DNA of 10,959 nt from Porticoccus sp. (GTDB lineage: Bacteria > Pseudomonadota > Gammaproteobacteria > Pseudomonadales > Porticoccaceae). The number at the start of each line of letters is the position of its first letter. Within the stretch, counting starts at the first letter, position 1. A program made the position numbers and the translations under genes. Shown here piece by piece: positions 1 to 10,959 of this stretch. Under the pieces are notes generated by a model, which was not told where the DNA came from, searched no databases, and saw only the letters and a list, made by a program, of their open reading frames with translations. The stretch lies in assembly GCA_011049795.1 (NCBI GenBank), contig DRHD01000276.1, forward strand, positions 1 through 10,959. Direction: 5' to 3'.

Positions 1-7
1 GACGAGC

Positions 8-856
8 ATGGGCAAGCTGGTAAAACCGGAAAACAGACAAATCGAAGGCGCCTGGTTCAAAGACCGCTGGAAAGAAGGCGAAGAGAACTGGGAAGATGTT
101 CGTGTAAAGCAGGACCATCCAGAAGATGTACTTGCTGGGCTGCATCGTCTCCGTCCTGCTCCGAAGAAAAATGCTCCTATTCCGATGGAGCTGTTGGGAA
201 GACAGAGTAATATTGGTCGTTCAGTAACCCTCCTTGGAGCAAGTGATTTTCTAGATGTTTTGAATCTTGAATCCGATGACCAGAAATCTAGAGCTGTTAC
301 ATTTCACACGGTCGCTTCACAAGAATTTGGGATTATCGGGGCTGCGGAAAACATAGAGGGGCGCATTATCTGGGGAGCTGGCGGTGTCCAGGCTGTAGTT
401 GACTTTGACTGGCTTTTAGGAGTTACATTCTCTGTTGTATGTAGCTTTGCGCGTTTACAGGTAAGGTCTACCGCCGCATTCCCGGTAGGTACTTCAGTAA
501 AATTAGGAGCATTTGCCGGATATGGTGACCTGGGAGCTGGTTCAAGACAAACCCTCCAACAAAGTATCGATATAGGCAATATTAACCCCGCTGCGTTTGG
601 TGCAGTTCAAATCCCTCTTTACGCAAAAGATGTATTCATCGCCCGGGCTGTAGATAATGCTTTTCTTGCTCCTCCTGCAATGAGAGTTTTTCAGATGTTA
701 CCAAACAATGTTATAATAATTGCTAGCGAACAATATGCTCTAGGCGTTCCCATGGAACGACCAATGCCTATCTCCCGGCGGGCAATTTCACTCAGAATAG
801 AGAATATTAGTCCTGCTGCTTTTAGAGCAGCTGCGATTTTCGGTCTTGCTATCTAG
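8..856 (+). CDS. Putative virion structural protein (282 aa), may extend upstream
   Basis: I do not recognise a named family. The first ~60 residues are charged and rich in Lys, Glu, Trp and Pro. The rest is beta-rich and poor in charge, with many Gly, Ala, Val and Phe, as in capsid or spike shells. A short motif recurs as NINPAAFGA (about 193-201) and NISPAAFRA (about 268-276), which may mark two related halves. No signal peptide or clear membrane segment is seen. The first ATG in the window is used, but there is no in-frame stop in the seven bases before it, so the gene could start upstream and the ribosome site cannot be judged. It ends two bases before the first 16-bp palindrome. A structural role is inferred from composition and from the neighbouring virion-type genes; a single-jelly-roll coat protein is one possibility. 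Confidence 0.6.
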   Translation: MGKLVKPENRQIEGAWFKDRWKEGEENWEDVRVKQDHPEDVLAGLHRLRPAPKKNAPIPMELLGRQSNIGRSVTLLGASDFLDVLNLESDDQKSRAVTFHTVASQEFGIIGAAENIEGRIIWGAGGVQAVVDFDWLLGVTFSVVCSFARLQVRSTAAFPVGTSVKLGAFAGYGDLGAGSRQTLQQSIDIGNINPAAFGAVQIPLYAKDVFIARAVDNAFLAPPAMRVFQMLPNNVIIIASEQYALGVPMERPMPISRRAISLRIENISPAAFRAAAIFGLAI

Positions 857-858
857 AG

Positions 859-874
859 TGTCGGTTAACCGACA
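859..874. repeat. 16-bp palindrome TGTCGGTTAACCGACA, copy 1
   Basis: Perfect inverted repeat, two bases after the stop of the 282-aa gene and 13 bases before the ATG of the zinc-ribbon gene. In RNA it can form a 6-bp stem with a UUAA loop. No U-tract follows, so it is not a typical terminator. Confidence 0.95.
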
Positions 875-887
875 GTAGGACATAACC

Positions 888-1031
888 ATGAGTCTGCTCA
901 CAGAAACGGTTAAGTGCAAGAAGTGCAAAGCCTTCATAGGCGATGTCACTGGCACGGACAAGAATCAGGTCAAGGCTGCTGTTAAGGGTCTTCCTAAAGA
1001 ATGTCCTGGCGGCTGCAAGGAGACTGAATAA
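888..1031 (+). CDS. Small zinc-ribbon-like protein (47 aa)
   Basis: The predicted protein has four cysteines at residues 10, 13, 39 and 43, arranged as KCKKCK and CPGGC. This is a CxxC...CxxxC layout that could bind one zinc ion. The remainder is Lys-rich and soluble. An AGGA ribosome site lies about eight bases before the ATG. The stop overlaps the next start by one base (TAATG), so the next gene is probably translationally coupled. Cys-pair proteins this small often bind nucleic acid or act as folding or assembly partners, but the function here is unknown. Coding status rests on the ribosome site, the exact coupling and the Cys pattern. Confidence 0.7.
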   Translation: MSLLTETVKCKKCKAFIGDVTGTDKNQVKAAVKGLPKECPGGCKETE

Positions 1032-1414
1032 TGGCCGGTGGAGATGTCGGTGTCACCCATGTTGCTGCTACTTCTCTAAAACAGGCGGTTGAGGTTTCTG
1101 GGGGAGTTGCTCCTGGACCGGGCAATGCTAGTACAAGCGCTATAGCGAGGGTTGCGACAAATGTCGCCAATGTTCTCTTGCTAGCTCTTAATGTAGGTCG
1201 CATTGGGGCGACGTTTCAGAACAACTCGACGACAAATCTGTTTCTCAAGCTCGGTGCGGTGGCTGCAATTGGTGCTGGGGTCGAGAGTTTCACTGTGAGG
1301 ATGGTTCCTAATGCTTACTATGAGGTCCCGTTTGGGTATACGGGTATCATAGATGGTATCTGGGATGGGGCTGATGCTACGGGTGAAGTATTGGTTACGG
1401 AGCTTACGGTATGA
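1031..1414 (+). CDS. Phage virion-associated beta-sandwich protein (127 aa)
   Basis: Residues about 45-125 match a pattern I recall from many phage genomes: hydrophobic strands, then a sequence like RIGATFQNNSTTNLFLKLGA (57-76), then YYEVPFGYTGIIDGIW (96-111) and a Thr/Glu end. Proteins of this kind usually lie among head, decoration or fibre genes and have no assigned enzymatic role. The N-terminal 40 residues are Gly/Ala/Val-rich and may attach to another virion component. The start is supported by AAGGAG upstream and a one-base overlap with the zinc-ribbon gene. The stop overlaps the next ATG (ATGA). The family resemblance is from memory, not from a search. Confidence 0.75.
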   Translation: MAGGDVGVTHVAATSLKQAVEVSGGVAPGPGNASTSAIARVATNVANVLLLALNVGRIGATFQNNSTTNLFLKLGAVAAIGAGVESFTVRMVPNAYYEVPFGYTGIIDGIWDGADATGEVLVTELTV

Positions 1415-1938
1415 GTCCGCCGCTGTTTAATCCTGCTGGTGGTGGGGGCAGTCTGCAATTCATAGAGCGTATTACCGTCGCTGGTGCTGCTGTGAATTCG
1501 GTGCTATTCAATACAGGGATTAACGGTGACCTTGACCGTTTCTACAAGCTAATTTTCCGTGTATTCAAGGCTGCTACGCTGACTGAATTACTTATTCAGC
1601 CTAATAGCATCGCTACCAATCAAGTGTCTCGGCGAGTAACCCAACAAAGCAGCACAACTACTTTTGCTTTCTCCGCTGTTGAGCAGCCAGTTGCTGCCGG
1701 CTTTGCAGGAGGGGAATTGTTCTATGATGCTCTAACCGGACGGGTTAGGTCCTATCGGGTAGCTAGCTACCTCCAAACACAAGCCGTGCCTACTCAAGCT
1801 GGCCAGTTCAATCGTTCTTTTTCAGGTTCTTGGAATGATACTATCACCAACATCACTAGCTTTCTCCTTAAAGCACAGGATGCTTCGCTTGGTATCGGTA
1901 TCGGTTCAGAGTTTAGTCTCTTTAGGCTCCTCACGTAG
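1411..1938 (+). CDS. Phage structural or fibre-type protein (175 aa)
   Basis: Begins with a flexible Pro/Gly stretch (NPAGGGGS), then SLQFIERITVAGA and a beta-rich body. It contains YKLIFRV near 46-52, SWNDTITNITSF near 140-151, and ends GSEFSLFRL. This start-to-end layout resembles a domain seen in small phage tail-fibre or head-decoration proteins, where a Gly-rich linker precedes a beta sandwich ending in LYRL-like residues. That comparison is from memory. The ATG overlaps the preceding stop as ATGA, with a CGGAG ribosome site upstream, so it is coupled to the 127-aa gene. The stop is followed after one base by palindrome copy 2. Confidence 0.7.
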   Translation: MSPPLFNPAGGGGSLQFIERITVAGAAVNSVLFNTGINGDLDRFYKLIFRVFKAATLTELLIQPNSIATNQVSRRVTQQSSTTTFAFSAVEQPVAAGFAGGELFYDALTGRVRSYRVASYLQTQAVPTQAGQFNRSFSGSWNDTITNITSFLLKAQDASLGIGIGSEFSLFRLLT

Positions 1939-1939
1939 G

Positions 1940-1955
1940 TGTCGGTTAACCGACA
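1940..1955. repeat. 16-bp palindrome TGTCGGTTAACCGACA, copy 2
   Basis: Fills almost the whole gap between the 175-aa and 254-aa genes. It starts two bases after the TAG and ends directly against the next ATG. Its second half would therefore occupy the region where a ribosome site is expected. Confidence 0.95.
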
Positions 1956-2720
1956 ATGCTTGCTAATCCTACCATATCTCCATCGTTTCCTGAGTTAGAA
2001 ATAGCTCGCGGAAAAGTTGCGCATGTTACTGTTGTTCGCAAGTTTGGTCGTAATCCGGCAGTCGGCGGTACTGAAGATGTCTGGACAGTGGGAGGTCTTT
2101 ATCCTTTTCCTACAGCAGCTTTACAGCTTCGTATTCAGGCAGGGGGAAATGCGGCTGATGCGTCGAGCGGCGCAAACGCGCGTGAAATTACTCTCCAAGG
2201 AGAAGATACTAACTTCAATTTAATTGAAGAAACCCTGGCGACAAATGGCATCGCTGTTAGTGCTCCTACAGTGCTTAGCTTTCGCAGACTTCATCGGGCA
2301 TTCGTTAGCGACGTTGGCGTATACGGCAATACGAATTTAGGCGATATCAATATTGAAACAACGGCTGCGACTGTATTGGCTAGAATTGGAGCAGTACTCG
2401 GTCAAACCCAGATGGCTATTTACACAATACCTAATGGGTTTACAGGTTTTCTTAGGCAATTTCGTGCTCAAGTCGAAAGCCCTCGCGCTGTTGATGTTAC
2501 CTTCTTTCAGCGTCTGAGAGCTGATGATATTGTAGCACCAATGGGAGCTACAAGAATCATCAGTGGATTTAATCAGGTTACAGGCGACTTAGTTCGACAG
2601 TACAATGCTATGGAAGTTGACTTTCCAGAGTTTACAGACATTTGGGCACAAGCTAGCAATCCCACGGCAGGTACCGCTCTGTCTGTTGAATTCTGCTTGT
2701 GGCTGGTAGCTAATGTTTAA
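1956..2720 (+). CDS. Phage capsid-region structural protein (254 aa)
   Basis: Shows the layout of a structural protein I recall from uncultured and marine phages: VVRKFGRNP (26-34), EDVWTVGGLYPFPTA (40-54), ANAREITLQGEDTNF (73-87) and QMAIYTIPNGFTGFLRQF (152-169), followed by a beta-rich C-terminal half. No enzyme motif is present. These proteins are normally found with head or fibre genes; the exact virion position is unknown. The start is forced: the frame has a TAA inside the palindrome at 1947 and the next codon that can start is this ATG. There is no Shine-Dalgarno sequence between palindrome and start, which is unusual here. Its stop overlaps the alternative upstream ATG of the transglycosylase gene. 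Confidence 0.75.
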   Translation: MLANPTISPSFPELEIARGKVAHVTVVRKFGRNPAVGGTEDVWTVGGLYPFPTAALQLRIQAGGNAADASSGANAREITLQGEDTNFNLIEETLATNGIAVSAPTVLSFRRLHRAFVSDVGVYGNTNLGDINIETTAATVLARIGAVLGQTQMAIYTIPNGFTGFLRQFRAQVESPRAVDVTFFQRLRADDIVAPMGATRIISGFNQVTGDLVRQYNAMEVDFPEFTDIWAQASNPTAGTALSVEFCLWLVANV

Positions 2721-2742
2721 TTGGTTCAGGAGGATAGTTGCC

Positions 2743-3651
2743 ATGTTTGCGGCATACTGGCGAGGTATAGGGTCGGGGACTGGCCTACGGCTAGCTGACC
2801 GACAACTAGGGGAATTGCCTCCGACTCCCGCGGTAGGTAAGGCCAGGGATATGACGAGGCGGTATGACCACCTTTTCCACAGCTTCGGATTGGGCCTACC
2901 TGTTCCCTTTCTGCGCTCGCTCGCCTATAAGGAAAGCGGCTTTAAACCTGACTCTGAGATAAGAAAAGGCATTGACCTGAGAACCCGGCTACTTCCTTTC
3001 CCCAGATATTACCGGCGAAATAAGAAAGGGGAGAAAAAGCCTAAACGCGATAGCTATTGGGGTCTTTTCCAGGTTGGTGTCACAAAAGTGCTTGAGAGTT
3101 ACAACAAGAAGCATCGTTCCAGAGTCACGCCCGCACAGCTTTTCAATGCTAGCATCAACACACAAATAGCCTCCTGGCAAATCAAGAGACGAATCATCGA
3201 TGCTTATGATAAGTTTGCTGAAAAGCACAATATCCCCGAGCTACGTCAGAACTGGAATAGTATCGAGTGGGTTCGTCTTGTTGTAGCTGGCTGGAATAGC
3301 GGACATTCCAGGTCTAGCGGTACCCAGGGAGCCGCCCGGTATCTCAAGAACATTGGCGTTCCTGTCACTCTTGACAATATGTACAAACACGGTAAGACCC
3401 TGTGGAAGGGCAAGGTTCGGAATGCTCCCTATCTCAATCGAAGATTCACCCTTACCAGGAAACAAAGGGACCCTTTGACTGGTAAAAAAGGAGAAGGTGA
3501 CAAGCGTGGTTGGCAGAAAGAGGTAGCTACTCACTATTTCCAGCAGCGAGCTCTGGATAGTCTTATGCCTCCTTCAGTGCCAGGGTCAAGCGGGCCCGCT
3601 GTTGCGGCTCTTGTGATTGCTACCGCGCTGGCTCTTGCTGTGGTTGCATAG
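2743..3651 (+). CDS. Lytic transglycosylase (SLT/lysozyme-like fold) with C-terminal membrane segment
   Basis: Predicted to cleave the peptidoglycan glycan strand. Lysozyme-superfamily motifs appear in order: LAYKESGF with the likely catalytic Glu at residue 64, YWGLFQVG (about 105-112) matching the G-L-M/F-Q motif, an LFNASINTQIA helix (about 133-143), and AGWNSG (182-187) in place of AYNAG. The last ~18 residues are hydrophobic (AVAALVIATALALAVVA), suggesting a membrane anchor. I chose the ATG at 2743 because AGGAGG lies nine bases upstream. An in-frame ATG at 2713 would add ten residues and overlap the previous stop but lacks a good ribosome site. It lies directly before a holin-like gene, so either a lysis enzyme or a virion-borne entry enzyme (as P7 of PRD1) is possible. 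The Lys/Arg-rich insertion at about 90-102 is unusual. Confidence 0.8.
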   Translation: MFAAYWRGIGSGTGLRLADRQLGELPPTPAVGKARDMTRRYDHLFHSFGLGLPVPFLRSLAYKESGFKPDSEIRKGIDLRTRLLPFPRYYRRNKKGEKKPKRDSYWGLFQVGVTKVLESYNKKHRSRVTPAQLFNASINTQIASWQIKRRIIDAYDKFAEKHNIPELRQNWNSIEWVRLVVAGWNSGHSRSSGTQGAARYLKNIGVPVTLDNMYKHGKTLWKGKVRNAPYLNRRFTLTRKQRDPLTGKKGEGDKRGWQKEVATHYFQQRALDSLMPPSVPGSSGPAVAALVIATALALAVVA

Positions 3652-3668
3652 TGTTGAACAAGCTTGAA

Positions 3669-3684
3669 TGTCGGTTAACCGACA
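3669..3684. repeat. 16-bp palindrome TGTCGGTTAACCGACA, copy 3
   Basis: Lies 17 bases after the transglycosylase stop and 25 bases before the holin-like ATG. It is the only exact copy preceded by A instead of G. Together with that A it creates an in-frame ATG at 3668, but the start at 3710 has the better ribosome site. Confidence 0.95.
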
Positions 3685-3709
3685 TAAGGCAATACAGAAG
3701 GGAATCATC

Positions 3710-4012
3710 ATGGATAAAAGTGGAATCAAAACAAGTGAATTCTGGATTTCTGTGGCCCTGTTTCTGCTGGGGATTGCTGTGTTTATCGTTGATTCTCTTA
3801 ATGCTGGCAGTTCAATAGTCGGTCAGATTGTTGGTGGTCTCGTGAGTCTCGCAGGGGTGCTCGGGTACACGATACCGAGAGCGGGAGTCAAGAAGCGAGC
3901 GCTAGAGGCGGAAGCTCTCAAGCTCCTCAGTGGTCTAGAAGTCAAAGGTCTAGAGGTCAAAACAAATCCATTAACAGGTCTTAATAAGGGTTCGACTCTA
4001 AACCCTTCCTAA
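3710..4012 (+). CDS. Two-TM holin-like membrane protein (100 aa)
   Basis: Two hydrophobic segments at about residues 11-29 and 35-55 are joined by a short NAGSS turn. They are followed by LGYTIPRAGVKKR and an Ala/Glu/Lys-rich helical tail. Short two-TM proteins with a Gly-Tyr-Thr then basic motif after TM2 are common next to phage endolysins and are usually called holins. Here the gene directly follows a transglycosylase, which supports a lysis role by inference. The ATG has AGAAGGGA seven bases upstream and is preferred over an in-frame ATG at 3668 that starts inside the palindrome. The end is odd: a heptamer A AAC CCT at 4000-4006, just before the TAA, would allow a -1 slip into a downstream frame that continues to 4254. 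Confidence 0.65.
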   Translation: MDKSGIKTSEFWISVALFLLGIAVFIVDSLNAGSSIVGQIVGGLVSLAGVLGYTIPRAGVKKRALEAEALKLLSGLEVKGLEVKTNPLTGLNKGSTLNPS

Positions 4013-4254
4013 GCCTGCCGGCCAAGCTCGATGATGTCGAAAAGAGACTCAAACCCGGAGAAGGAAAGCTCGATTTGTTTGGATTCCTTCGCGGCGATGA
4101 GATTTCAGGCAAGGCAGGCGTTGGAGTCGATTACGAGCATCGCATCAGACAAGACATCGCTGGATTCCTTTACGGCTCTTTATGGAAGGGTTGGGGAATA
4201 CAACCGGCAATGGGTTACAACGCAGTTGGCGGATTGCGAATGAGGTTCCGATGA
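4006..4254 (+). CDS. Downstream -1 frame of the holin-like gene: probable frameshift extension or separate small protein
   Basis: This frame is open from 3988 to the TGA at 4252-4254 but has no ATG or GTG until near its end. It reads as real protein: LPAKLDDVEKRLKPGEGK, then a Gly/aromatic alternating section (AGVGVDYEHRI, FLYGSLWKGW, MGYNAVGGLRMRF) resembling membrane beta-strands. A -1 slip on A AAC CCT (4000-4006) would join it to the holin-like protein as a 181-aa product. Other options are a TTG start at 4075 with GGAGAAGGA upstream, a recent disabling frameshift, or a sequencing error. The next gene has an ATG at 4251 that overlaps this frame's TGA as ATGA, the junction type used elsewhere in the window, which argues that ribosomes reach this stop. 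The competing +1 frame (ATG at 4031) looks random. Confidence 0.5.
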   Translation, partial: FLSLPAKLDDVEKRLKPGEGKLDLFGFLRGDEISGKAGVGVDYEHRIRQDIAGFLYGSLWKGWGIQPAMGYNAVGGLRMRFR

Positions 4255-5021
4255 GTCTATCAGCAGCATATATGGCGGGGTGTCGGTTAACCGACATTAA
4301 CCGGCATTACACGATGGTTCGCGGGGCTCAGAAACTAAAGCATTGGGTCGGGGCTCAAGGTGCTTTGCCACGACAGTTGGACTTGAAAGCCCCAAACCCG
4401 CTCAAGGGAATCATCATCGAGCCAAGCCTTGACCCAAAATCTCGGTTTACCGATTACAATCAGGTGTTAAAGAAAAAGACGTTCAGGGAATACGGGCTTT
4501 ATATTATCCCGGAAGGGAAGTTAGAACGTCCTATTCCGCTCACAACTCCAGCCATCGTATTAGACTATACTCAATGGCTTGGAGAAAATAATGCTCTAAC
4601 TCGACGTGGAGCAGACCCAAGGCAGGAAGAAAAACTCCTCGCGCAATTGCGAGCAAACAGAGCAGGTGTAATGTCGTGGTTCGATGCTGAATTGGCAAAA
4701 GCCGGAATTGCAGCTGGAACTCCTCGACATACTCAACTTCTCCGTACTACCGTTATCCCAAAACATTTAGCTCTAAATTTCTGGACCACTGCGGGTAAAC
4801 AAGCAATCCGTCTCGATTCGGCAAAGATGGTTCCAGGTTTGCTTGACAATCTCAAGATGCTCGGGGGAGCGTTTTGGGAAGCAACAAAGGACCTACTCAA
4901 AAAGGGTAAGGATACTCTCGGGTGGTTGCTTACTCTGCTCAAGTGGATGGCAATCGCGTTTGGGATTGGTCTTGGCGGGTTGATTATTCTGAATATTGTG
5001 CAAGCATTTGGGGATGAGTAG
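4251..5021 (+). CDS. Protein with C-terminal membrane anchor (256 aa), function unknown
   Basis: No family recognised. A soluble N-terminal part of about 220 residues, with basic patches (KHW, LKKKTFREY, KQAIRLDSAK), is followed by an amphipathic stretch. A long hydrophobic segment near residues 230-250 (LLTLLKWMAIAFGIGLGGLIIL) comes close to the C terminus, giving a tail-anchored layout. Start choice matters. ATG 4251 overlaps the preceding TGA (ATGA) and has TGAGG five bases upstream, but it places palindrome copy 4 inside codons 11-16. ATG 4314 would leave the palindrome as a leader and give 235 aa, but it has no clear ribosome site. The gene stands between lysis-type and spike-type genes, so a virion membrane or envelope-spanning role is possible but unproven. 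Confidence 0.65.
   Translation: MSLSAAYMAGCRLTDINRHYTMVRGAQKLKHWVGAQGALPRQLDLKAPNPLKGIIIEPSLDPKSRFTDYNQVLKKKTFREYGLYIIPEGKLERPIPLTTPAIVLDYTQWLGENNALTRRGADPRQEEKLLAQLRANRAGVMSWFDAELAKAGIAAGTPRHTQLLRTTVIPKHLALNFWTTAGKQAIRLDSAKMVPGLLDNLKMLGGAFWEATKDLLKKGKDTLGWLLTLLKWMAIAFGIGLGGLIILNIVQAFGDE
4281..4296. repeat. 16-bp palindrome TGTCGGTTAACCGACA, copy 4
   Basis: Exact copy, followed immediately by TTAACCGGCAT, which resembles a second degraded right half. It is either the leader of a gene starting at 4314 or is translated as CRLTD if the gene starts at 4251. Confidence 0.95.
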
Positions 5022-5024
5022 GAC

Positions 5025-5053
5025 TGTCGGTAAGCTACTGAGTGTCGGTTAAC
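5025..5053 (+). repeat. 29-bp exact repeat, copy A (degraded palindrome plus palindrome left part)
   Basis: The 29 bases here recur exactly at 9197-9225. The unit starts TGTCGGTAAGCTACTGAG and ends in the left part of the 16-bp palindrome. Here it continues into an intact palindrome; at the other site the palindrome breaks off after TGTCGGTTAAC. Confidence 0.9.
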
Positions 5054-5058
5054 CGACA
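5043..5058. repeat. 16-bp palindrome TGTCGGTTAACCGACA, copy 5
   Basis: Lies 21 bases after the stop of the membrane-anchored protein and 13 bases before the ATG at 5072. The GGAG ribosome site follows the palindrome within a few bases. Confidence 0.95.
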
Positions 5059-5071
5059 CACGGAGAAAACA

Positions 5072-5386
5072 ATGTCTGAACCTAATATTCCTGGAAGTCT
5101 CCTGGTTCATGCTGCGGGTAGTGTAACAAGCGCTGGGCTCAACTTTTTCCTGGTCAATGCTACTGTAACGCGGACAGGACTTGGAATTTATACTATTGCT
5201 CTGGGTACAGAAATCGCTCGCGATGAACGAGTAATCTTTTGTCAGGTAAATGCGTCAGTTGCTCGCGATGCTTCGGTAAATGGAGCCGCTTCGTTACCTG
5301 GAAGTTTTGAGGTACGTGTGCTTACCGAGTTGGGTGGGTTAGCAGATACGAATTTCATGTTTGTTGTATTGAGAGTAATCGTATAA
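5072..5386 (+). CDS. Small beta-rich protein (104 aa), spike/fibre-type family member 1
   Basis: Shares the pattern of four other proteins in this window: an N-terminal LLVHAAGS, a central VTRTGLGIYTIALGT, and a hydrophobic end (FMFVVLRVIV). The R-x-G-x-G-x-Y-x-I-x-L strand motif is typical of small beta-sandwich domains at the ends of phage fibres and spikes; this comes from memory of such sequences. A GGAG site upstream supports ATG 5072 over an in-frame GTG at 5042 that starts in the palindrome. It is the most divergent family member. No signal peptide or membrane segment is seen. A receptor-binding or decoration role is inferred. Confidence 0.65.
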   Translation: MSEPNIPGSLLVHAAGSVTSAGLNFFLVNATVTRTGLGIYTIALGTEIARDERVIFCQVNASVARDASVNGAASLPGSFEVRVLTELGGLADTNFMFVVLRVIV

Positions 5387-5414
5387 ATCGGAAAGCTCCA
5401 GGGCAGGAGAGGAT

Positions 5415-6290
5415 ATGAACAAAGAGAAGCTAACAGACTGGCTAGGCAGACAGTTTTACAAAACAGATGACCAGCTCGGTGTCTGTTGTAAACTGGTCTG
5501 CAAGCATGTAGGTTCCAGTAAGGGGGATGTCTTTCAAATCATGGTCCCAAATAACGAGAAGGTCGTTAAGGTGGACGATGACGAGTTAGCCATCATGGCG
5601 AATCAAATCGAGGGGCAAGTCTTAGAGGATGCTGAAGGGCTTGGCGGGGTTTGTAAGTACCAGCTTCTCGCCTACTTCAGCAAGGCTTCTCGTCCTGTCT
5701 CTCGTCTCACGTTTCGCGTAACAGGCTCGGAATTCGACGAGGATGAAGACGGGTTCTCAGAAGGACCCAATCAAAAGGGCCATATGGGGCAGATGATGCG
5801 CCATAACGAAGCTCTTACACGTATCGCTGTTATGGGCTCGAATCAAGCGCTAGGACTACAAAATCGAACCATCGCCAGACAGCAAGAGCTTATCGAAAAC
5901 ATGATGGATAAGCATCTTCAGAATATCGAGCTTACCGAAACCCTTCTATCGAATCAACATGTAAGGGACCTGGAGACAAAGGCAGCAGCGGCAAAAGAAG
6001 AACGGTATGAACAATTGTACCAAAAGGGCAAGGTCTTAATCCCCGTTATCGCCAACCGTATCGCCGGTCGCAAAGTCCTGCCGGAAGAATCAGACCCGAT
6101 GGTAGAAACTCTCAAAGCGTTTGCTGAGAGTCTTAGCCCGGGTCAGGCTAGCGACTTGATGAGTAAGCTCAATCCTGAGCAGAAAATTGCTTTCGCCGAG
6201 TTCTTTGACGCGATGCACGCTAAAGAGGATGAGGAAGAAGCTAAGAAGAAACAACTCATTGAGGGAAAAGGAGGCGCTAACGGAGCATGA
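5415..6290 (+). CDS. Coiled-coil protein (291 aa), possible assembly or scaffold protein
   Basis: Three parts are visible. Residues 1-105 form a mixed alpha/beta region with Cys at 24, 25, 29 and 80. A short acidic run follows (EFDEDED, 106-112). From about 120 to 205 there is a long Gln/Glu/Met-rich helix (MGQMMRHNEALTRI, RTIARQQELIENMMDKHL), likely a coiled coil. A second helical region (LIPVIANRIAGRKVLPEE, 208-225, then SLSPGQASDLMSKLNPEQKIAF) ends in an acidic, then Gly-rich tail. No enzyme motif or membrane segment is seen. A strong site (AGGAGAGG) precedes the ATG. The layout would suit a scaffold or internal assembly protein, but I do not recognise a named family. Confidence 0.65.
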   Translation: MNKEKLTDWLGRQFYKTDDQLGVCCKLVCKHVGSSKGDVFQIMVPNNEKVVKVDDDELAIMANQIEGQVLEDAEGLGGVCKYQLLAYFSKASRPVSRLTFRVTGSEFDEDEDGFSEGPNQKGHMGQMMRHNEALTRIAVMGSNQALGLQNRTIARQQELIENMMDKHLQNIELTETLLSNQHVRDLETKAAAAKEERYEQLYQKGKVLIPVIANRIAGRKVLPEESDPMVETLKAFAESLSPGQASDLMSKLNPEQKIAFAEFFDAMHAKEDEEEAKKKQLIEGKGGANGA

Positions 6291-6481
6291 ATTGGACAAA
6301 GGTTATGGTGCTCTTCCTCTACATCGGAGGAGCGTTAATTTCCCTCGCCATTGCTCAAGGAGATTCTTCCGGCGAAGCTATAGCATATATGTTTGCTGGC
6401 GCGGCTGCGAACCAGGGAGCAAGTCTGAAAAACGGTCAAACCTCGCGCAGCAAACGTAACACGGATTCACCAATCCACTGA
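6287..6481 (+). CDS. Small single-TM protein (64 aa)
   Basis: A hydrophobic segment at about residues 5-24 (KVMVLFLYIGGALISLAIAQ) is preceded by one Lys and followed by an Ala/Gly-rich stretch and a polar, basic tail. It could be a membrane peptide, or a signal peptide cleaved near AIAQG. The ATG overlaps the previous stop (ATGA) with GGAG about ten bases upstream, so the gene is probably coupled to the 291-aa gene. No function can be assigned; small membrane peptides occur both in phage lysis sets and in the inner membranes of membrane-containing virions. Confidence 0.6.
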   Translation: MNWTKVMVLFLYIGGALISLAIAQGDSSGEAIAYMFAGAAANQGASLKNGQTSRSKRNTDSPIH

Positions 6482-6496
6482 AAAGGAAATCGAGAT

Positions 6497-6820
6497 ATGC
6501 CTAATCCAAACATTGGTACTGCTAACGTTCTGGTTGGTGCTGCAAAGGTATCAGCTGCTACTCCGCCTATCGTAACCAATGCGGTGGGTATCAGCGGCGT
6601 TACTCGGACAGGTGCTGGAATCTGGGTCGTAACTATTGTCGAGCCCGCGGATTTCACCAATCGTTTTGTGACTCTTACGTCATTCTTCGCGACGCACGGG
6701 GTTCTGGAGCTTGACCCGGCGGTCCAGACGGATGTCACTATTGGTGTTCTGGGATTCCTGCTCGCCGTGGCTTCCGACCTCGCGTGGGAAATCAAGGTGG
6801 AGCGCGTAAGCCTTCCCTAG
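6497..6820 (+). CDS. Small beta-rich protein (107 aa), spike/fibre-type family member 2
   Basis: Contains the family strand motif as VTRTGAGIWVVTIVEP (35-50) and a family-like N terminus (NVLVGAAKVSAA). It ends in AWEIKVERVSLP. AAGGAAATCGAG precedes the ATG. The next gene is a near copy: the two proteins differ at 8 of 107 positions, while 22 further codons differ silently, so both copies have been kept under protein-level selection since duplication. The role is inferred as a virion surface subunit; two close variants might form hetero-oligomers or provide alternative specificities. No catalytic motif is seen. Confidence 0.7.
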   Translation: MPNPNIGTANVLVGAAKVSAATPPIVTNAVGISGVTRTGAGIWVVTIVEPADFTNRFVTLTSFFATHGVLELDPAVQTDVTIGVLGFLLAVASDLAWEIKVERVSLP

Positions 6821-6834
6821 AAAGAAATCGAGAA

Positions 6835-7158
6835 ATGCCTAATCCAAACATTGGTACTGCTAATGTTCTGGTCGGTGCTGCAAAGGTATCGGCTGCCACT
6901 CCCCCCGTCGTGACCAACGCGGTAGGTATCAGTGGTGTTACTCGGACAGGCGCTGGAATCTGGGTCGTAACCATTGTGGAGCCCACAGATTTCACCAGTC
7001 GTTTCGTAACTCTTACATCGTTCTTCGCGACGCACGGGGCTCTGGAGCTTGACCCGGCGGTCCAAACGGATGTCACTATTGGTGTCCTGGGCTTCCTGCT
7101 TAACGCGGCTGCCGACCTCGCGTGGGAAATCAAGGTGGAGCGCGTAAGCGTTCCCTAG
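6835..7158 (+). CDS. Small beta-rich protein (107 aa), spike/fibre-type family member 3
   Basis: Tandem duplicate of the preceding gene with exactly the same length. The start is set at 6835, where the first 9 codons match the sister gene base for base and a GAAAGAAATCGAG leader also matches. An in-frame ATG at 6784 lies inside the sister gene and is not used. Amino-acid differences from the sister are at residues 25, 51, 55, 69, 90, 91, 93 and 106; the cluster at 90-93 (LLAVAS against LLNAAA) may mark an exposed loop. The gene is followed by about 115 non-coding bases with two palindromes. Confidence 0.7.
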   Translation: MPNPNIGTANVLVGAAKVSAATPPVVTNAVGISGVTRTGAGIWVVTIVEPTDFTSRFVTLTSFFATHGALELDPAVQTDVTIGVLGFLLNAAADLAWEIKVERVSVP

Positions 7159-7180
7159 ATAGTAATCTGGTAGTACGGCG

Positions 7181-7193
7181 CCCCAGTTTGGGG
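7181..7193 (+). other. Short GC hairpin CCCCAgttTGGGG
   Basis: A 5-bp GC-rich stem with a three-base loop lies directly before palindrome copy 6, in the gap after the tandem 107-aa genes. There is no following T-run, so terminator activity is unlikely without other factors. Confidence 0.4.
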
Positions 7194-7209
7194 TGTCGGT
7201 TAACCGACA
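7194..7209. repeat. 16-bp palindrome TGTCGGTTAACCGACA, copy 6
   Basis: First of two exact copies in the gap before the 220-aa gene. The copies start 37 bases apart, with 21 bases between them, and a further GTTAAC core lies in the spacer at 7218-7223. Confidence 0.95.
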
Positions 7210-7230
7210 CGGGGCTAGTTAACAAGCGCG

Positions 7231-7246
7231 TGTCGGTTAACCGACA
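7231..7246. repeat. 16-bp palindrome TGTCGGTTAACCGACA, copy 7
   Basis: Second copy of the pair, ending 27 bases before the ATG at 7274. A six-codon reading frame at 7257-7277 overlaps that ATG as ATGA but is too short to call a gene. Confidence 0.95.
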
Positions 7247-7273
7247 ACCTGAAACAATGAAAGAAGGCAGACA

Positions 7274-7936
7274 ATGAGTAAACAAGAACGAATGATGGCT
7301 CAACTCGCTTACATCAAAAGGCGCCTGGAAACCTGGAGCCCTGCCAGTCACGAATCGAGAATGCTCGGGGACCTTCTTATGCTACTGACTCAAACGGTGG
7401 GCGGGGAAGAGGCGAGCGTGGGGTCAGCGGCTGCGGGTATCTTGCAGGAGGGGGCAAATGTTCCGGTTCATCTGCAAGAGCAACAGAGGCGGGGAGGTAT
7501 TCAGCTCGCTCCGGGGGTGGTGCAATATCCTGCGGCTCCGCAGGTTGTGTTGCCCCCGGGTGGTATGAACCAACCGGGCGGGATGCAAAGTCAGGCGGCT
7601 TTGCAGCCGGCGCCTATTGATGTTGCGGCGGGGATAGCCGCAATGGGGGCGCCGCCGTTGGGGGTTGCGGCTCCTGCTGTTCCGATGCCGACGCCTGTTC
7701 CGGGTTCGCTTGCGGACCAGGCGTTAGGCGGGCAAGCTGTAGTGGGACCGCCCCCATCGGCTCCGGGGTATGCTCCGGGTATCGTAGCGACTGCTGAGGC
7801 TGTCGGTCAACCGACACCAGAAGAAGCTCAAGCGTCTGCTGAAATGGAAAAATTGCTTGGTGGGGATAATGGAATTCCCGATGGGGTCCCATCTCCAGCG
7901 GCTACTGAAACTGTAGTTACACCTGCTAAGGAGTAG
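7274..7936 (+). CDS. Pro/Ala/Gly-rich low-complexity protein (220 aa)
   Basis: The first ~50 residues look folded and helical (QERMMAQLAYIKRRLETW, MLGDLLMLLTQTVGG). From about 60 to 200 the chain is dominated by Pro, Ala, Gly, Val and Gln with PxP and PGG runs, suggesting an extended or disordered linker. No catalytic motif, signal peptide or membrane segment is seen. GAAGG lies eight to twelve bases before the ATG. The low-complexity part is much richer in G and C than neighbouring genes and contains a one-mismatch copy of the palindrome (7801-7816, encoding VGQPT). A linker, scaffold or membrane-bridging virion part is possible. The function is unknown. Confidence 0.6.
   Translation: MSKQERMMAQLAYIKRRLETWSPASHESRMLGDLLMLLTQTVGGEEASVGSAAAGILQEGANVPVHLQEQQRRGGIQLAPGVVQYPAAPQVVLPPGGMNQPGGMQSQAALQPAPIDVAAGIAAMGAPPLGVAAPAVPMPTPVPGSLADQALGGQAVVGPPPSAPGYAPGIVATAEAVGQPTPEEAQASAEMEKLLGGDNGIPDGVPSPAATETVVTPAKE
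7801..7816. repeat. Palindrome variant TGTCGGTCAACCGACA inside a gene
   Basis: Matches the 16-bp palindrome at 15 of 16 positions; the central TT is TC. It lies in the coding sequence of the Pro/Ala/Gly-rich protein and is the only near copy clearly within a gene body. Confidence 0.8.
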
Positions 7937-7938
7937 TC

Positions 7939-8025
7939 ATGTACGCCGAGTTCCTTTCTCTGTCACTGGTTTTCTATGCTGGAGTCTCTGTATTGCGGTT
8001 TGGGGCTTACTGGCTAGAGAAATAG
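7939..8025 (+). CDS. Tiny single-TM peptide (28 aa)
   Basis: The peptide is one hydrophobic helix (FLSLSLVFYAGVSVL) with an aromatic and basic end (RFGAYWLEK). AAGGAG lies six bases before the ATG, and the start is two bases after the previous stop, which supports real translation. Membrane peptides of this size are common in phage lysis and virion-membrane gene sets. Function unknown. Confidence 0.5.
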   Translation: MYAEFLSLSLVFYAGVSVLRFGAYWLEK

Positions 8026-8028
8026 ACT

Positions 8029-8190
8029 ATGCCACTTATCTATCTCTTCGGAGCTGCCATCTCGACCATGCTCATTCAAAGCGTGGTCAGGCGGTTGTAT
8101 GACAATGCTCACCGTCATTACGTGAAGACGCTCAATCCTGCGGAGATGAGTGGAGAAAGATTGAGTTTCTACAAGAGAGGGGCTCGGTAA
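8029..8190 (+). CDS. Small membrane-associated protein (53 aa)
   Basis: A hydrophobic N-terminal helix at about residues 2-20 (LIYLFGAAISTMLIQSVV) is followed by a basic, polar tail (RRLYDNAHRHYVK ... FYKRGAR). The ribosome site is weak (AGAGAAA), but the gene starts three bases after the 28-aa peptide and its TAA overlaps the next ATG (TAATG), so it fits an unbroken coupled string. Positive charges after the helix suggest that the C terminus faces the cytoplasm. Function unknown. Confidence 0.5.
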   Translation: MPLIYLFGAAISTMLIQSVVRRLYDNAHRHYVKTLNPAEMSGERLSFYKRGAR

Positions 8191-8912
8191 TGTTAGATGC
8201 GTATAGACGAGGGTGTCGGGTCGGGGTAGTCCCGAAGAAAACTCACTGGACGAGGGATTGGCAGATTGCTGGGGTGAATTCCCAGGTCGGGCTGTTGAAG
8301 ATTGGGAGCAGAGAGGGGATTACTCTCGATAGAATTTCTCCTGGCCAATACATGTATAAGGATTGGTGGGTACGGGGCTCAGCATCAGGAAATGTTTGGC
8401 TTGTAGGTAAGCGGGGCGAAAGAGCTATCTTTCATTCTTCTACCCTAAAAGGGATAAGAGAAATGCTAGCTAATATAGAACCCAGCGAAATCGGTTCCCG
8501 GGAGGGGATTACTCTCGACCGAGTCGGAACTGGTCATTACCTATGGAAAAACTATCATATCCTTAGGACAAAAAACCGTTGGATGGTTTGGGACTCGCTT
8601 AACCCTGGACCGACACACCGATATCGTACTCTCAGGAATGTAAGAAAGCGGTTAGCGCTAGGGATTCCGTTTCCCGAAGTAGGGAGCAGAGAGGGGATTA
8701 CTCTCAAGCCAATTAGGTCTGGTAGATACGAATACGAAGGAGATAAAGATTTCTACTTTATCTCACAATGGGAATGGGGACCAACTTATAGAAAATGGGA
8801 TGTAAAAGGAAAAAATATTTCAGCAGGCGGATTCAGAACGCTTAGAGATGTACGTAAATGGATTGCAGCTCGCGAAGCAAGACAGGCGATTGCGAGGGCA
8901 GAAAGCAGTTAA
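8190..8912 (+). CDS. Triple-repeat protein with GSREGITL units (240 aa)
   Basis: After 38 residues there are three tandem units starting with the identical octapeptide GSREGITL at residues 39, 102 and 165, exactly 63 residues (189 bases) apart. Each unit continues as G-x-Y, two or more Trp/Tyr-rich strands and a helix ending T-L-K/R-x-V/I-R. This suggests a small beta-beta-beta-alpha domain of about 60 residues. Units 1 and 3 share the same 24 bases for the octapeptide, whereas unit 2 uses different codons for the first three residues, so the peptide itself is selected. The protein is strongly basic, which would suit nucleic-acid binding; repeated binding domains or a cleavable polyprotein are alternatives. 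GAGAGGGG precedes the start, which overlaps the previous stop. No named family is recognised. Confidence 0.65.
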   Translation: MLDAYRRGCRVGVVPKKTHWTRDWQIAGVNSQVGLLKIGSREGITLDRISPGQYMYKDWWVRGSASGNVWLVGKRGERAIFHSSTLKGIREMLANIEPSEIGSREGITLDRVGTGHYLWKNYHILRTKNRWMVWDSLNPGPTHRYRTLRNVRKRLALGIPFPEVGSREGITLKPIRSGRYEYEGDKDFYFISQWEWGPTYRKWDVKGKNISAGGFRTLRDVRKWIAAREARQAIARAESS

Positions 8913-8922
8913 GTAAACCGCC

Positions 8923-8975
8923 GCCCTGGGTAGCTAGCTAGGTTTCACTGCCTTGGCCGGCTAGCTGCCCGGGGC
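8923..8975 (+). terminator. Strong RNA hairpin, possible terminator or regulatory structure
   Basis: The arms 8923-8939 and 8959-8975 pair along 17 positions without a bulge, three of them G-U, around a 19-base loop. The structure begins ten bases after the stop of the triple-repeat gene and is followed by AACTTTTAGG. The T-run is short and displaced, so termination may be weak or partial. A transcript-stabilising or attenuating hairpin is equally possible, because the next gene's ribosome site starts only a few bases later. Confidence 0.55.
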
Positions 8976-8997
8976 AACTTTTAGGAAAGGCAGAACT

Positions 8998-9192
8998 ATG
9001 TTGATTTGTGAAAGGGATGGTAAGTTTCATATTGTTCGCAAGATTACTAAGTCAGGTATGAGTCTGAAAGTAAACACGTATTGCGGACAAGACGGTTTCA
9101 GCGAAATCGACCAGTTGCCTATTGAGTTTCTTGGCAAGCTCTGTGCAGGGTGTCAGGGGTCATGGGACGAAACGAAAAAGGCTGCTGGGTAG
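8998..9192 (+). CDS. Small Cys-containing protein (64 aa), possible zinc binding
   Basis: Cysteines at residues 4, 29, 49 and 52 include one clear CAGC pair (LCAGCQG), so a single metal site formed with the other two is possible. The N-terminal half looks like beta strands (MLICERDGKFHIVRKI, LKVNTYCG). GGAAAGG precedes the ATG by about seven bases. It follows the strong hairpin and is the last gene before the palindrome cluster at 9197-9250. Function unknown. Confidence 0.6.
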   Translation: MLICERDGKFHIVRKITKSGMSLKVNTYCGQDGFSEIDQLPIEFLGKLCAGCQGSWDETKKAAG

Positions 9193-9196
9193 TGAG

Positions 9197-9225
9197 TGTC
9201 GGTAAGCTACTGAGTGTCGGTTAAC
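9197..9225 (+). repeat. 29-bp exact repeat, copy B, with truncated palindrome at 9215
   Basis: Exact match to 5025-5053. Its last 11 bases are the left part of the palindrome, which here breaks into GGCTGG instead of CGACA. An intact palindrome follows at 9235. Confidence 0.9.
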
Positions 9226-9234
9226 GGCTGGTCG

Positions 9235-9250
9235 TGTCGGTTAACCGACA
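9235..9250. repeat. 16-bp palindrome TGTCGGTTAACCGACA, copy 8
   Basis: Intact copy in the 123-base gap before the three tandem beta-rich genes, 65 bases upstream of the ATG at 9316. This is the largest palindrome-to-start distance in the window. Confidence 0.95.
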
Positions 9251-9263
9251 TCACCAGCTTACA

Positions 9264-9298
9264 CGAAGTAGCCCCCGACAAACGAGGTAGCCACCGAC
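9264..9298 (+). repeat. Two short direct repeats, CGARGTAGCCMCCGAC
   Basis: Copies at 9264-9279 and 9283-9298 match at 14 of 16 bases and start 19 bases apart, directly before the GGAGG ribosome site of the next gene. Such spacing could suit a regulator binding on one face of the helix over nearly two turns. No regulator is identified. Confidence 0.5.
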
Positions 9299-9315
9299 GC
9301 ATGGAGGAATAAGCG

Positions 9316-9648
9316 ATGAGTGTTCCATATCTTGACCCTGCCTGGCGGTTACATGCTGCGGGGTTTCAGACGTCGGCTGCTGGCGCAGCGGTTCTGGGTA
9401 ATTCGGTCAATGTTACGCAGATTAATAGGATTGGAGCTGGGGTATACCATATCATCCTAGATGAGCCCTTGGACCCCGCTGATGGGATTCTGATACTCCG
9501 CACACTGAGGGTAGCAGCTCTTAGAATCATATCAGAAGATGCGGGGCCAGCAAACGATATTACTCGGGGCGTACGTATTCTTAATGGGGTAGCAGCACCT
9601 ACCGATGATACATTTCGTTTCCTCTTGTTCCGATACAACGCACCGTAG
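9316..9648 (+). CDS. Small beta-rich protein (110 aa), spike/fibre-type family member 4
   Basis: First of three tandem paralogues. The N terminus is LDPAWRLHAAGFQTS, the centre has the family strand motif as INRIGAGVYHIILDEP, and the end is FRFLLFRYNAP. The shared N and C termini with varied middles suggest a common attachment and fold with variable exposed loops. GGAGG lies eight bases before the ATG. There is no signal peptide or membrane segment. It is inferred to be a virion surface subunit; the sequence shows no enzyme motif. Confidence 0.7.
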   Translation: MSVPYLDPAWRLHAAGFQTSAAGAAVLGNSVNVTQINRIGAGVYHIILDEPLDPADGILILRTLRVAALRIISEDAGPANDITRGVRILNGVAAPTDDTFRFLLFRYNAP

Positions 9649-9665
9649 AAAGAGATAGCATAAGA

Positions 9666-10004
9666 ATGTTACCAAATCTCAATCCTGCATGGTCTGTACA
9701 TGCCGCTGGTGAACAAACTTCGGTTGGTGCTGTTGCTGCTCTAGCGCCAAGGTCTAAAAATATCGTTAGTATTATCCGAGATGGGGCAGGGGAATATATT
9801 ATCACCATGGATACTCCATTGGGTATGAATGATGGGGTTATGATAGTTACTCCTGTATTCGTAGCAGGCGTGGTTATCGCACAGCCAATCCTGGAAACCC
9901 CCGTTATTGACCTTACTAGACGATTTATAGTTATTGTCGATGGGGTATTGGGTGGTCTTGACGCTGCTTTCAAATTTGTATTGTTTCGATACAATGCTCC
10001 ATAG
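9666..10004 (+). CDS. Small beta-rich protein (112 aa), spike/fibre-type family member 5
   Basis: Second of the tandem trio. It begins LPNLNPAWSVHAAGEQTS, shares this block almost exactly with the next gene, and ends FKFVLFRYNAP like the previous one. This mosaic similarity would fit recombination or gene conversion among the copies. The central motif is IIRDGAGEYIITMDTP. The ribosome site (AAAGAG) is weaker than that of its neighbours. It lies 17 bases after the previous stop with no palindrome between, so the trio is probably one transcript. Confidence 0.7.
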   Translation: MLPNLNPAWSVHAAGEQTSVGAVAALAPRSKNIVSIIRDGAGEYIITMDTPLGMNDGVMIVTPVFVAGVVIAQPILETPVIDLTRRFIVIVDGVLGGLDAAFKFVLFRYNAP

Positions 10005-10016
10005 AAGGGATGATAA

Positions 10017-10346
10017 ATGCTCCCAAATCTCAATCCAGCCTGGTCTGTTCATGCAGCAGGATTTCAATCATCAGATGGTATTGTAGCAGTATTAGACCCG
10101 GCCTCGGCAAATGTTGTTAGTATCACGAGAACAGGCGCTGGCGTTTATGATATCCTGCTCGGAAGCGCTATAGACCCCAATGATGGTATTTTTATACCTT
10201 CTCCTTTTTCTGAAAGCGGTACTGTCATCTTCTTTAGTCTGATAGCCATTACTGATACACTGGTAACTCTCAATATTACAAATGGTGCAGTGGCTCAAAC
10301 AGATGAGATATTCAAGTTTATCTATTTCCGTTTCCGTGTTCCGTAG
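10017..10346 (+). CDS. Small beta-rich protein (109 aa), spike/fibre-type family member 6 (last of trio)
   Basis: Begins LPNLNPAWSVHAAGFQSS. The central motif is ITRTGAGVYDILLGS, followed by a Phe/Ser-rich loop (PSPFSESGTVIFF) not found in the sisters, and the end is FKFIYFRFRVP. GAAGGGA lies upstream of the ATG. The stop TAG is directly followed by palindrome copy 9. Codon use is more A/T-rich in the middle section than at the ends. A virion-surface role is inferred from family membership. Counting 5072, 6497, 6835, 9316 and 9666, it is the sixth member in the window. Confidence 0.7.
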   Translation: MLPNLNPAWSVHAAGFQSSDGIVAVLDPASANVVSITRTGAGVYDILLGSAIDPNDGIFIPSPFSESGTVIFFSLIAITDTLVTLNITNGAVAQTDEIFKFIYFRFRVP

Positions 10347-10362
10347 TGTCGGTTAACCGACA
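10347..10362. repeat. 16-bp palindrome TGTCGGTTAACCGACA, copy 9
   Basis: Begins on the base right after the stop codon of the third tandem beta-rich gene and ends 19 bases before the GTG at 10382. It separates the spike-type block from the 81-aa block. Confidence 0.95.
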
Positions 10363-10381
10363 CAGAAAGGCAGAAAAGGCA

Positions 10382-10627
10382 GTGCCGTGTCAAACAGAAG
10401 TAAAAGCAGGTCCAACTGCTCGACCGGAAGATGAAGCAGTCGAAAGACTAATCATGTTCCTGAATGGCCAGACATCGAATTCACGTTCGCTCGTGATTCA
10501 GCTTGAACAGATGAGAAAGTGGATGGGAGATACCCTCACAAAGCACCCATCCGTAGCGGTGGCAATGGCTGGAAACGAATCAATCCAACGCTTTGTCCTT
10601 GCCTGGAAAGGCAAAAACGATGGGTAA
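10382..10627 (+). CDS. Helical 81-aa protein, paralogue 1 (GTG start)
   Basis: First of three tandem paralogues. The GTG is chosen because GAAAAGG lies just upstream and it gives exactly the same length (81 aa) as the next gene with an ungapped alignment; an in-frame GTG at 10346 inside the palindrome is less likely. Conserved core with paralogue 2: IQxEQxxxW-x-G-x-TL-x2-HP-x-VAVAMA-x-N (residues about 39-65), probably two or three helices. About 40% of positions are identical between the two by my count. No membrane segment or enzyme motif is seen. Function unknown. Confidence 0.6.
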   Translation: MPCQTEVKAGPTARPEDEAVERLIMFLNGQTSNSRSLVIQLEQMRKWMGDTLTKHPSVAVAMAGNESIQRFVLAWKGKNDG

Positions 10628-10865
10628 TCAAGTTAAGATGCAGGCGGCTCCTACAATTAGAACTGAGACAATGGCCATTGACGAATTAGTCAGATTCCTC
10701 GACGGTCTCTATGTTTCTGCTCACTCTACTTTCATCCAAATGGAGCAGTTCAAAAGGTGGTTAGGTCAAACGCTCGCTGAACATCCAGCTGTAGCCGTAG
10801 CAATGGCTGAGAATAAAAAAGTCCAGCAGTTTATTAACAGTGTCAATGAAGAGGCTGTTGGATAG
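10620..10865 (+). CDS. Helical 81-aa protein, paralogue 2
   Basis: Overlaps the first paralogue by eight bases. GGAAAGG lies about seven bases before the ATG at 10620; an in-frame ATG at 10593 would start inside the previous gene. Contains AAPTIRTETMAIDELVRFL, then IQMEQFKRWLGQTL and HPAVAVAMAEN. It is soluble and predicted largely helical. The conserved VAVAMA helix and the Trp before Gly-x-Thr-Leu mark the family. The tandem arrangement suggests stepwise duplication. Function unknown. Confidence 0.65.
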   Translation: MGNQVKMQAAPTIRTETMAIDELVRFLDGLYVSAHSTFIQMEQFKRWLGQTLAEHPAVAVAMAENKKVQQFINSVNEEAVG

Positions 10866-10878
10866 ACAGAAAGGCAAA

Positions 10879-10959
10879 ATGGCTAACGAGGTTAAGATAA
10901 GGCAGTCCCCCGTAATCGCTTCTGCGTTCGAGGAACTGAAAAACATGAGTACATTTCTA
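10879..10959 (+). CDS. Helical 81-aa family, paralogue 3, cut by window end
   Basis: Only the first 27 codons are present. MANEVKIRQSPVIASAFEEL aligns with the first 20 residues or so of paralogue 2 (MGNQVKMQAAPTIRTETMAI). GAAAGGCA precedes the ATG, as in the other copies. The frame is still open at the last base, so the gene continues past the window. Confidence 0.55.
   Translation, partial: MANEVKIRQSPVIASAFEELKNMSTFL

Follow-up and report, generated by a model that had tools for sequence, protein, structure and literature searches.

Palindromes known as REP or RPE elements occur in host genomes in many copies and are mobilised in trans, and the inverted repeats (IRs) of phage N15, its SopB sites, are dispersed over the N15 genome. 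The phage systems closest to the one described here are as follows. Stoperators of cluster A (L5-type) mycobacteriophages are short fixed sites present in more than 20 copies per genome, some of them in short intergenic spaces and with a strand preference relative to transcription; each is a 13-bp asymmetric site bound by a monomer, and the phage repressor halts elongation (PMC9283540). SPBRE of Bacillus phage SPbeta is an intergenic repeated element under one master repressor, MrpR, its 15-bp motif lying in the promoter regions of ten named genes (PMC10516654). Among the SAS/ESAS elements of cluster K mycobacteriophages, translation starts carry the SAS, which is asymmetric and 13 bp long, and imperfect 17-bp inverted repeats lie upstream of about half of them (PMC3203893), while the PeSLs of T4-type phages, which combine an early promoter with a terminator stem-loop, are stem-loops implicated in gene shuffling (PMC4503421). 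For N15, three of the IR oligonucleotides in Table 4 of the source read GTGCGACC-NN-GGTCGCAC (PMC7205306). The element analysed here is TGTCGGTTAACCGACA, a perfect 16-bp palindrome found in nine exact copies in a 10,959-nt stretch of DNA (contig DRHD01000276.1, positions 1 to 10,959, hereafter the window) that looks like part of an uncultured phage. There is about an even chance that the palindrome serves as a duplex DNA site with two-fold symmetry, bound by a putative dimeric protein that blocks or punctuates transcription.

The exact copies, to which no strand is assigned, lie at 859–874 (2 nt past the stop of open reading frame (ORF) 8–856 and 13 nt ahead of the ATG at 888), 1940–1955 (1 nt past the stop of 1411–1938 and abutting the ATG at 1956), 3669–3684 (17 nt past the stop of 2713–3651 and 25 nt ahead of the ATG at 3710), 4281–4296 (near the 5' end within ORF 4251–5021, or 17 nt ahead of an ATG at 4314), 5043–5058 (21 nt past the stop of 4251–5021 and 13 nt ahead of the ATG at 5072), 7194–7209 and 7231–7246 (both in gap 7159–7273, the second 37 bp from the first), 9235–9250 (gap 9193–9315), and 10347–10362 (immediately past the stop of 10017–10346 and 19 nt ahead of the GTG at 10382). 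All nine positions in the initial annotation proved correct on recount, each copy being exact, and its chance value of about 3 per million is of the right order of magnitude, the expected number of chance occurrences of a given 16-mer being 10959/4^16 = 2.6e-6. A tenth, near-identical copy, TGTCGGTCAACCGACA at 7801–7816, likewise unstranded, has one central base changed (centre TCAA) and lies within ORF 7274–7936. Beyond these the window holds no site at two or three mismatches, two at four and one at five, where shuffles of the window minus the ten copies gave means of 0.03 at three mismatches, 0.33 at four and 2.0 at five; dinucleotide shuffles gave a mean of 0.01 matches at three or fewer mismatches, and none of 200 reached ten. 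A gradient of decayed copies is absent: copies are either perfect or missing. The two-fold symmetry spans the whole 16-mer, its four central bases too; these are themselves self-complementary, as a random tetraloop would be expected to be in 1/16 of cases. Because the dyad extends through these four bases, which a hairpin loop does not need, and because the copies are invariant without any compensatory change, a site in duplex DNA is favoured.

Gene gaps make up 866 of the 10,959 bases (7.9% of the window), yet they contain eight of the nine exact copies (binomial P 1.3e-8). In the underlying gene map all genes are set on the + strand and minus-strand ORFs of up to 144 amino acids are taken as chance; three small ORFs were mapped one base off (8030, 10383 and 10880 for 8029, 10382 and 10879), which barely alters the count, and 4013–4250 was scored as a gap despite its open frame, which also barely alters the count and makes it conservative. 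The open frame there (3988 to 4253), in the -1 frame, runs over the end of ORF 3710–4012 and may reflect a frameshift, an error or a separate small gene. For the copy at 4281 the placement is ambiguous, since it is inside ORF 4251–5021 with that start and ahead of the gene with the alternative start at 4314; leaving it aside, copies lie 0–72 nt past a stop codon and 0–65 nt ahead of a start codon. The map has 15 gaps of 5 nt or longer. Seven contain the eight gap copies and eight are empty, namely 4013–4250 (open in another frame), 5387–5414, 8913–8997, and five of 12–17 nt, which include the gaps between tandem paralogues. The proposed location at gene-block borders describes the eight exact copies in gaps; 7801, in contrast, is in an ORF, and 4281 may be.

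No sigma-70-like promoter coincided with any of the nine exact copies in a scan that covered the sigma-70 consensus only, leaving other promoter types uncovered; the window as a whole held six promoter-like matches against 10.7 expected by chance, one of which, on the minus strand, overlaps 7801 at chance level. None of the copies is among the 11 terminator-like sites, and no T run appears in the bases after them. Identity as an intrinsic terminator or as a sigma-70 operator is unsupported at the nine exact copies, and therefore a blocking or punctuating role fits better than that of a promoter operator. Such sites would stand at the borders of small same-strand gene blocks, in what is probably a late region, and a protein bound to them would act as a roadblock or operator, silencing transcription or punctuating it. 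It could be encoded elsewhere in the phage genome, by an ORF without a recognised family, or by the host. We infer late expression, two-fold binding and, from peptides only, conservation in relatives.

The evidence from relatives centres on the window's gene for a transglycosylase-like (SLT) protein (2713–3651, + strand): other contigs supplied six homologues, and three of these have palindrome-like peptides near the N-terminus. The closest relatives collected were metagenome proteins and, counting the window's own, comprised 12 of the phrog_8198 protein described below, six of the first ORF and seven transglycosylases, the transglycosylase homologue search having scored the best 7996 candidates by word sharing. 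For each of these 25 proteins the fewest base changes were counted between the 16-mer and any DNA able to encode each protein stretch. P0023 reached zero changes (CRLTDK, residue 19), and P0020 (VSVDRQ, residue 9) and P0024 (ASVNRQ, residue 15) one change each, the P0023 peptide being in a different reading frame from the other two. All three peptides fall within the first 25 residues, in a variable-length linker between a conserved N-terminal MFAAYWRG-like stretch and the catalytic domain. The window's own transglycosylase, at best three changes away (residue 15), is one of four homologues without the peptide; P0021, P0022 and P0025 come no closer than four changes anywhere, and P0025 lacks the N-terminal linker part. 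None of the other 18 proteins is at one change, the best being two, in P0007. Shuffled proteins reached one change or fewer within the first 40 residues in 5 of 14,000 cases, none with zero, and over the whole length in 19 of 7,000. In loci picked without regard to the motif, real ORFs did so in 1 of 521 within the first 40 residues and again in 1 of 521 over up to 280 residues; an earlier real-ORF null, which covered the whole protein and included loci chosen for the motif, gave 11 of 738.

Conservation of the palindrome at the nucleic-acid level in relatives, inside genes too, is the best explanation of peptide traces in two frames and is suggested by them, as judged from the peptides over all codons that could encode them. 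The putative carriers are only 42–57% identical in their transglycosylases. Free variation in related viruses, an outcome that had been named as contrary to a binding site, is not what these presumed relatives show, insofar as peptides can tell. P0004, P0018 and P0025 each come from a 25,957-base contig of the same source, presumably a single one, and the window would for that reason belong to a real lineage. One search for the relatives' DNA returned 43 loci at no more than 35% identity, and another returned a single locus at 28%; further searches returned none.

Folding of the transcript was considered in detail, with the flanks of the copies. These had been described as unrelated, which is nearly right: the base before the site is G in eight of the nine copies and A in the ninth, the base after it is C in only three of nine, and one 32-nt stretch containing part of a site is duplicated. 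The position of the preceding G was chosen after seeing the data, so that its P of 2e-4 is uncorrected. The duplicated stretch, at 5022–5053 (+ strand) and 9194–9225, is 97% alike in its two occurrences, starts 0 and 1 nt past a stop codon, and ends in the full copy at 5043 and in a partial copy at 9215, respectively. The second occurrence opens a composite boundary (9194–9299, + strand) in which partial copies at 9197 and 9215, CCGACA at 9275 and CCGACG at 9294 are nested round the full copy at 9235.

These features bear upon a tentative possibility, on balance unlikely, that the functional form is an RNA hairpin, UGUCGG-UUAA-CCGACA, in polycistronic mRNA, acting at cistron borders on processing, stability or translation control, with a loop perhaps read by a protein. 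The isolated 16-mer does fold at -7.4 kcal/mol, the copies are close to stop and start codons, and a G on the 5' side only would give the site a strand. Region 9190–9318 folds as three nested TGTCGG/CCGAC stems (z -4.7), none of 300 shuffles of gap 9193–9315 that held the 16-mer being as stable, and the variant at 7801 retains the stem and alters the loop. The copy-free gap 8913–8997 has a long stable hairpin of its own (z -2.9), which can be counted on the same side; it includes TAGCTAGCTA, found again at 1760. However, no copy carries a compensatory change, and the loop is both self-complementary and invariant in the nine copies. When the hairpin was forced together with 25-nt flanks, no pairing was gained at any of the nine copies over 200 shuffled flanks each (z -0.78 to +0.98), so that an extended hairpin round each copy is unsupported at all nine sites and supported only for the whole gap 9193–9315. 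The two-copy gap 7159–7273 is unexceptional, 81 of 300 shuffles keeping both copies reaching its stability. In a scan of the window by 80-nt tiles the most structured ones start at 9201, 10801 and 7121, and that at 10801 has no copy. The copies lack a U tract, and no match to Rfam at the gathering score was found in the window; a transfer RNA (tRNA) scan of the window likewise returned nothing.

Returning to the protein-bound duplex site, several of these results weigh against it. The preceding G is unmirrored by a following C, an imbalance that would not be predicted if the site were purely symmetric, and the exceptional stability of gap 9193–9315 could be a property of RNA. Copies inside genes, at 7801 and, as the peptides suggest, in transglycosylase relatives, are odd for an operator, and a classical promoter operator is unsupported. 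No regulator has been recognised among the window ORFs scanned, though most of these match no family. Even so, the initial proposal of a protein-binding site fits best, given the exact two-fold symmetry, the fixed sequence, the absence of extra flank pairing at the nine copies and, from peptides, the apparent conservation in relatives in different reading frames; the sites are, however, not restricted to gaps.

A third explanation, distinctly unlikely, is a mobile or recombinogenic palindrome, either REP- or RPE-like or a module-shuffling border as in PeSLs, which would insert between genes and in frame into tolerant linkers. It would account for the in-gene copy at 7801 and for the linker peptides of P0020, P0023 and P0024, a match not being reached in P0019, P0021 and P0022 and that part being absent from P0025, as well as for the 5022/9194 duplication, which runs from stop codon to palindrome, and for the nested partial copies at 9197–9299. 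On the other hand, the element is only 16 bp long, has left no gradient of decayed copies, and is accompanied by no recognised transposase among the window ORFs scanned.

Its distribution outside the window also speaks against mobility, as no other viral or genome stretch found contains a second exact copy. Among the viral contigs scanned, the exact 16-mer is present in one (L001), once, and among the species genomes scanned it is present in 24 genome stretches, in a single copy each. A general host-genome repeat, the other contrary outcome that had been named, was thus not seen, and a host or general repeat is ruled out for the sampled collections at no more than one exact copy per stretch or viral contig. 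Of two looser patterns, the first occurs in 53 stretches (L001 included), where only L088 has two copies, with another centre (TATA), and the second in 22 stretches (L001 included), none with two copies. The L088 copies (13742–13829) are two TGTCGGTATACCGACA palindromes 72 bp apart, and the 14-kb locus to which they belong, from a 150-kb contig, contains five TAGGATCCTA palindromes. L001 carries, besides the exact 16-mer, a 17-base version, TGTCGGTTCAACCGACA, within an ORF (sites 2994–3009 and 10254–10270); its ORFs resemble what we take to be terminase and portal genes, and the contig is unrelated to the window. No palindrome of at least 10 bases was repeated more than three times in L001–L044, among the top two listed per length, and L142 had no match at four or fewer mismatches; dispersed palindromes as a trait of a wider group are unsupported by these loci. 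In the literature searched, the 16-mer and its 14-base core were unmatched, and inner pieces of 10 or 12 bases occur in three papers with unrelated titles.

Among the 24 genome stretches, two come from Aenigmatarchaeota genomes and are orthologous to each other (L059:572–612 and L064:647–688). In both, the exact 16-mer is accompanied by a second palindrome, TGTCGG-N6-CCGACA, the pair being placed after the 3' end of one gene and ahead of the ATG of a winged-helix gene of the TrmB family (TrmB/ArsR-like); the domain is over the Pfam cut-off in one of the two genomes. The palindrome pair is likely to represent operators. We read this case, by analogy, as an independent precedent for such a sequence serving as a DNA operator and not as a sign of kinship. 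An Aenigmatarchaeota host for the window was considered and rejected: the 16-mer at one mismatch or fewer occurs in three of 156 genomes of the phylum, and the sharing is taken as coincidence. The phrog_8198 protein was unmatched in the two Aenigmatarchaeota genomes, an empty result that shows nothing by itself.

The remaining alternative, a distributed centromere or nucleoprotein-organising site (of the N15 IR, parS or KorB type) in a plasmid-like prophage, is very unlikely: short identical arms about a few central bases do recall the N15 IRs, but with ten copies in 11 kb the density is well above that of N15, which has four IRs, no par genes were recognised among the window ORFs scanned, and the window DNA has no near match among 72,556 plasmid records.

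Turning to the genes of the window, 19 ORFs were compared with PHROGs and 12 with Pfam, the ORFs outside these scans being three further paralogues (see below) and those at 7939 and 10879. The only strong match was to phrog_8198, and no regulator, partition or transposase gene was recognised among the ORFs scanned, most of which match no family, in keeping with the initial annotation, which had found no regulator gene in the window; one of the family-less ORFs could itself encode the binding protein. The phrog_8198 protein (1956–2720, + strand) is distantly related to a cyanophage protein that is named 'virion protein' in one record pair; it matched 45 phage records, and 42 of these bear the name Synechococcus, Cyanophage or Prochlorococcus, with 30.0–36.4% identity among the 20 listed. 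Of the window proteins queried (21 of 22), none except this one matched the collected loci. Neither the window DNA nor the transglycosylase had a match in phage records. The model of protein 8–856 is weak, with a mean pLDDT of 67.7 and query-normalised TM-scores of 0.16–0.31 for the 50 listed fold matches. Six paralogues of 104–112 residues are encoded at 5072–5386, 6497–6820, 6835–7158, 9316–9648, 9666–10004 and 10017–10346, one of them with a weak tail-fibre PHROG match (E 0.003), and directly tandem paralogues have no palindrome in between. ORF 8190–8912 contains three repeats 189 nt apart (GSREGITL motif) at 8304–8729.

Should the copies be operators, a single regulator would control many small gene blocks together, an arrangement that to our knowledge is known in only a few phage groups, and the exact site could serve as bait for finding that regulator. 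If relatives with diverged genes truly keep the 16-mer in coding linkers and in different frames, the site takes precedence over the protein sequence at that place, and the phage would offer a case, open to testing, in which a signal in the nucleic acid prevails over what is encoded. A more sweeping proposal, which is rather unlikely as it stands, would be that a lineage of uncultured phages carries one invariant palindrome, about once per kb of a probably late region, both in gaps and in coding linkers able to tolerate it. The palindrome would then be either a site with an orientation, used for punctuation or coating, or a mobile palindrome of unusually small size; it would be recognised by a protein of some kind, and its sequence would outlive the genes that surround it.

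Set against the known systems, the locus shows partial likeness to several. It resembles stoperators in that eight of the nine exact palindrome copies are in gaps; unlike them, the site is a perfect 16-bp dyad, and no repressor has been recognised in the window. SPbeta is a far larger prophage, and the locus, which like SPBRE has a repeated element in intergenic regions, differs in its density of ten copies in 11 kb; the scan with the sigma-70 consensus placed no promoter at the exact copies. Identical arms and a short centre are shared with the N15 IRs, whereas N15 has four sites per genome together with sop genes, and here there are ten in 11 kb and no recognised par genes. With SAS/ESAS it has in common many copies tied to gene starts, the difference being that a single perfect palindrome is used here. 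Unlike PeSLs, the nine exact copies coincide with neither a promoter-like site (sigma-70 consensus only) nor a terminator-like one. The palindrome may be of REP or RPE type; it has at most one exact copy in each of the 24 genome stretches, and no transposase was recognised in the window. Defining features fail for stoperators (symmetry), intrinsic terminators and PeSLs. By analogy, the palindrome would work like a dispersed operator, a putative one not assigned here to any named family.

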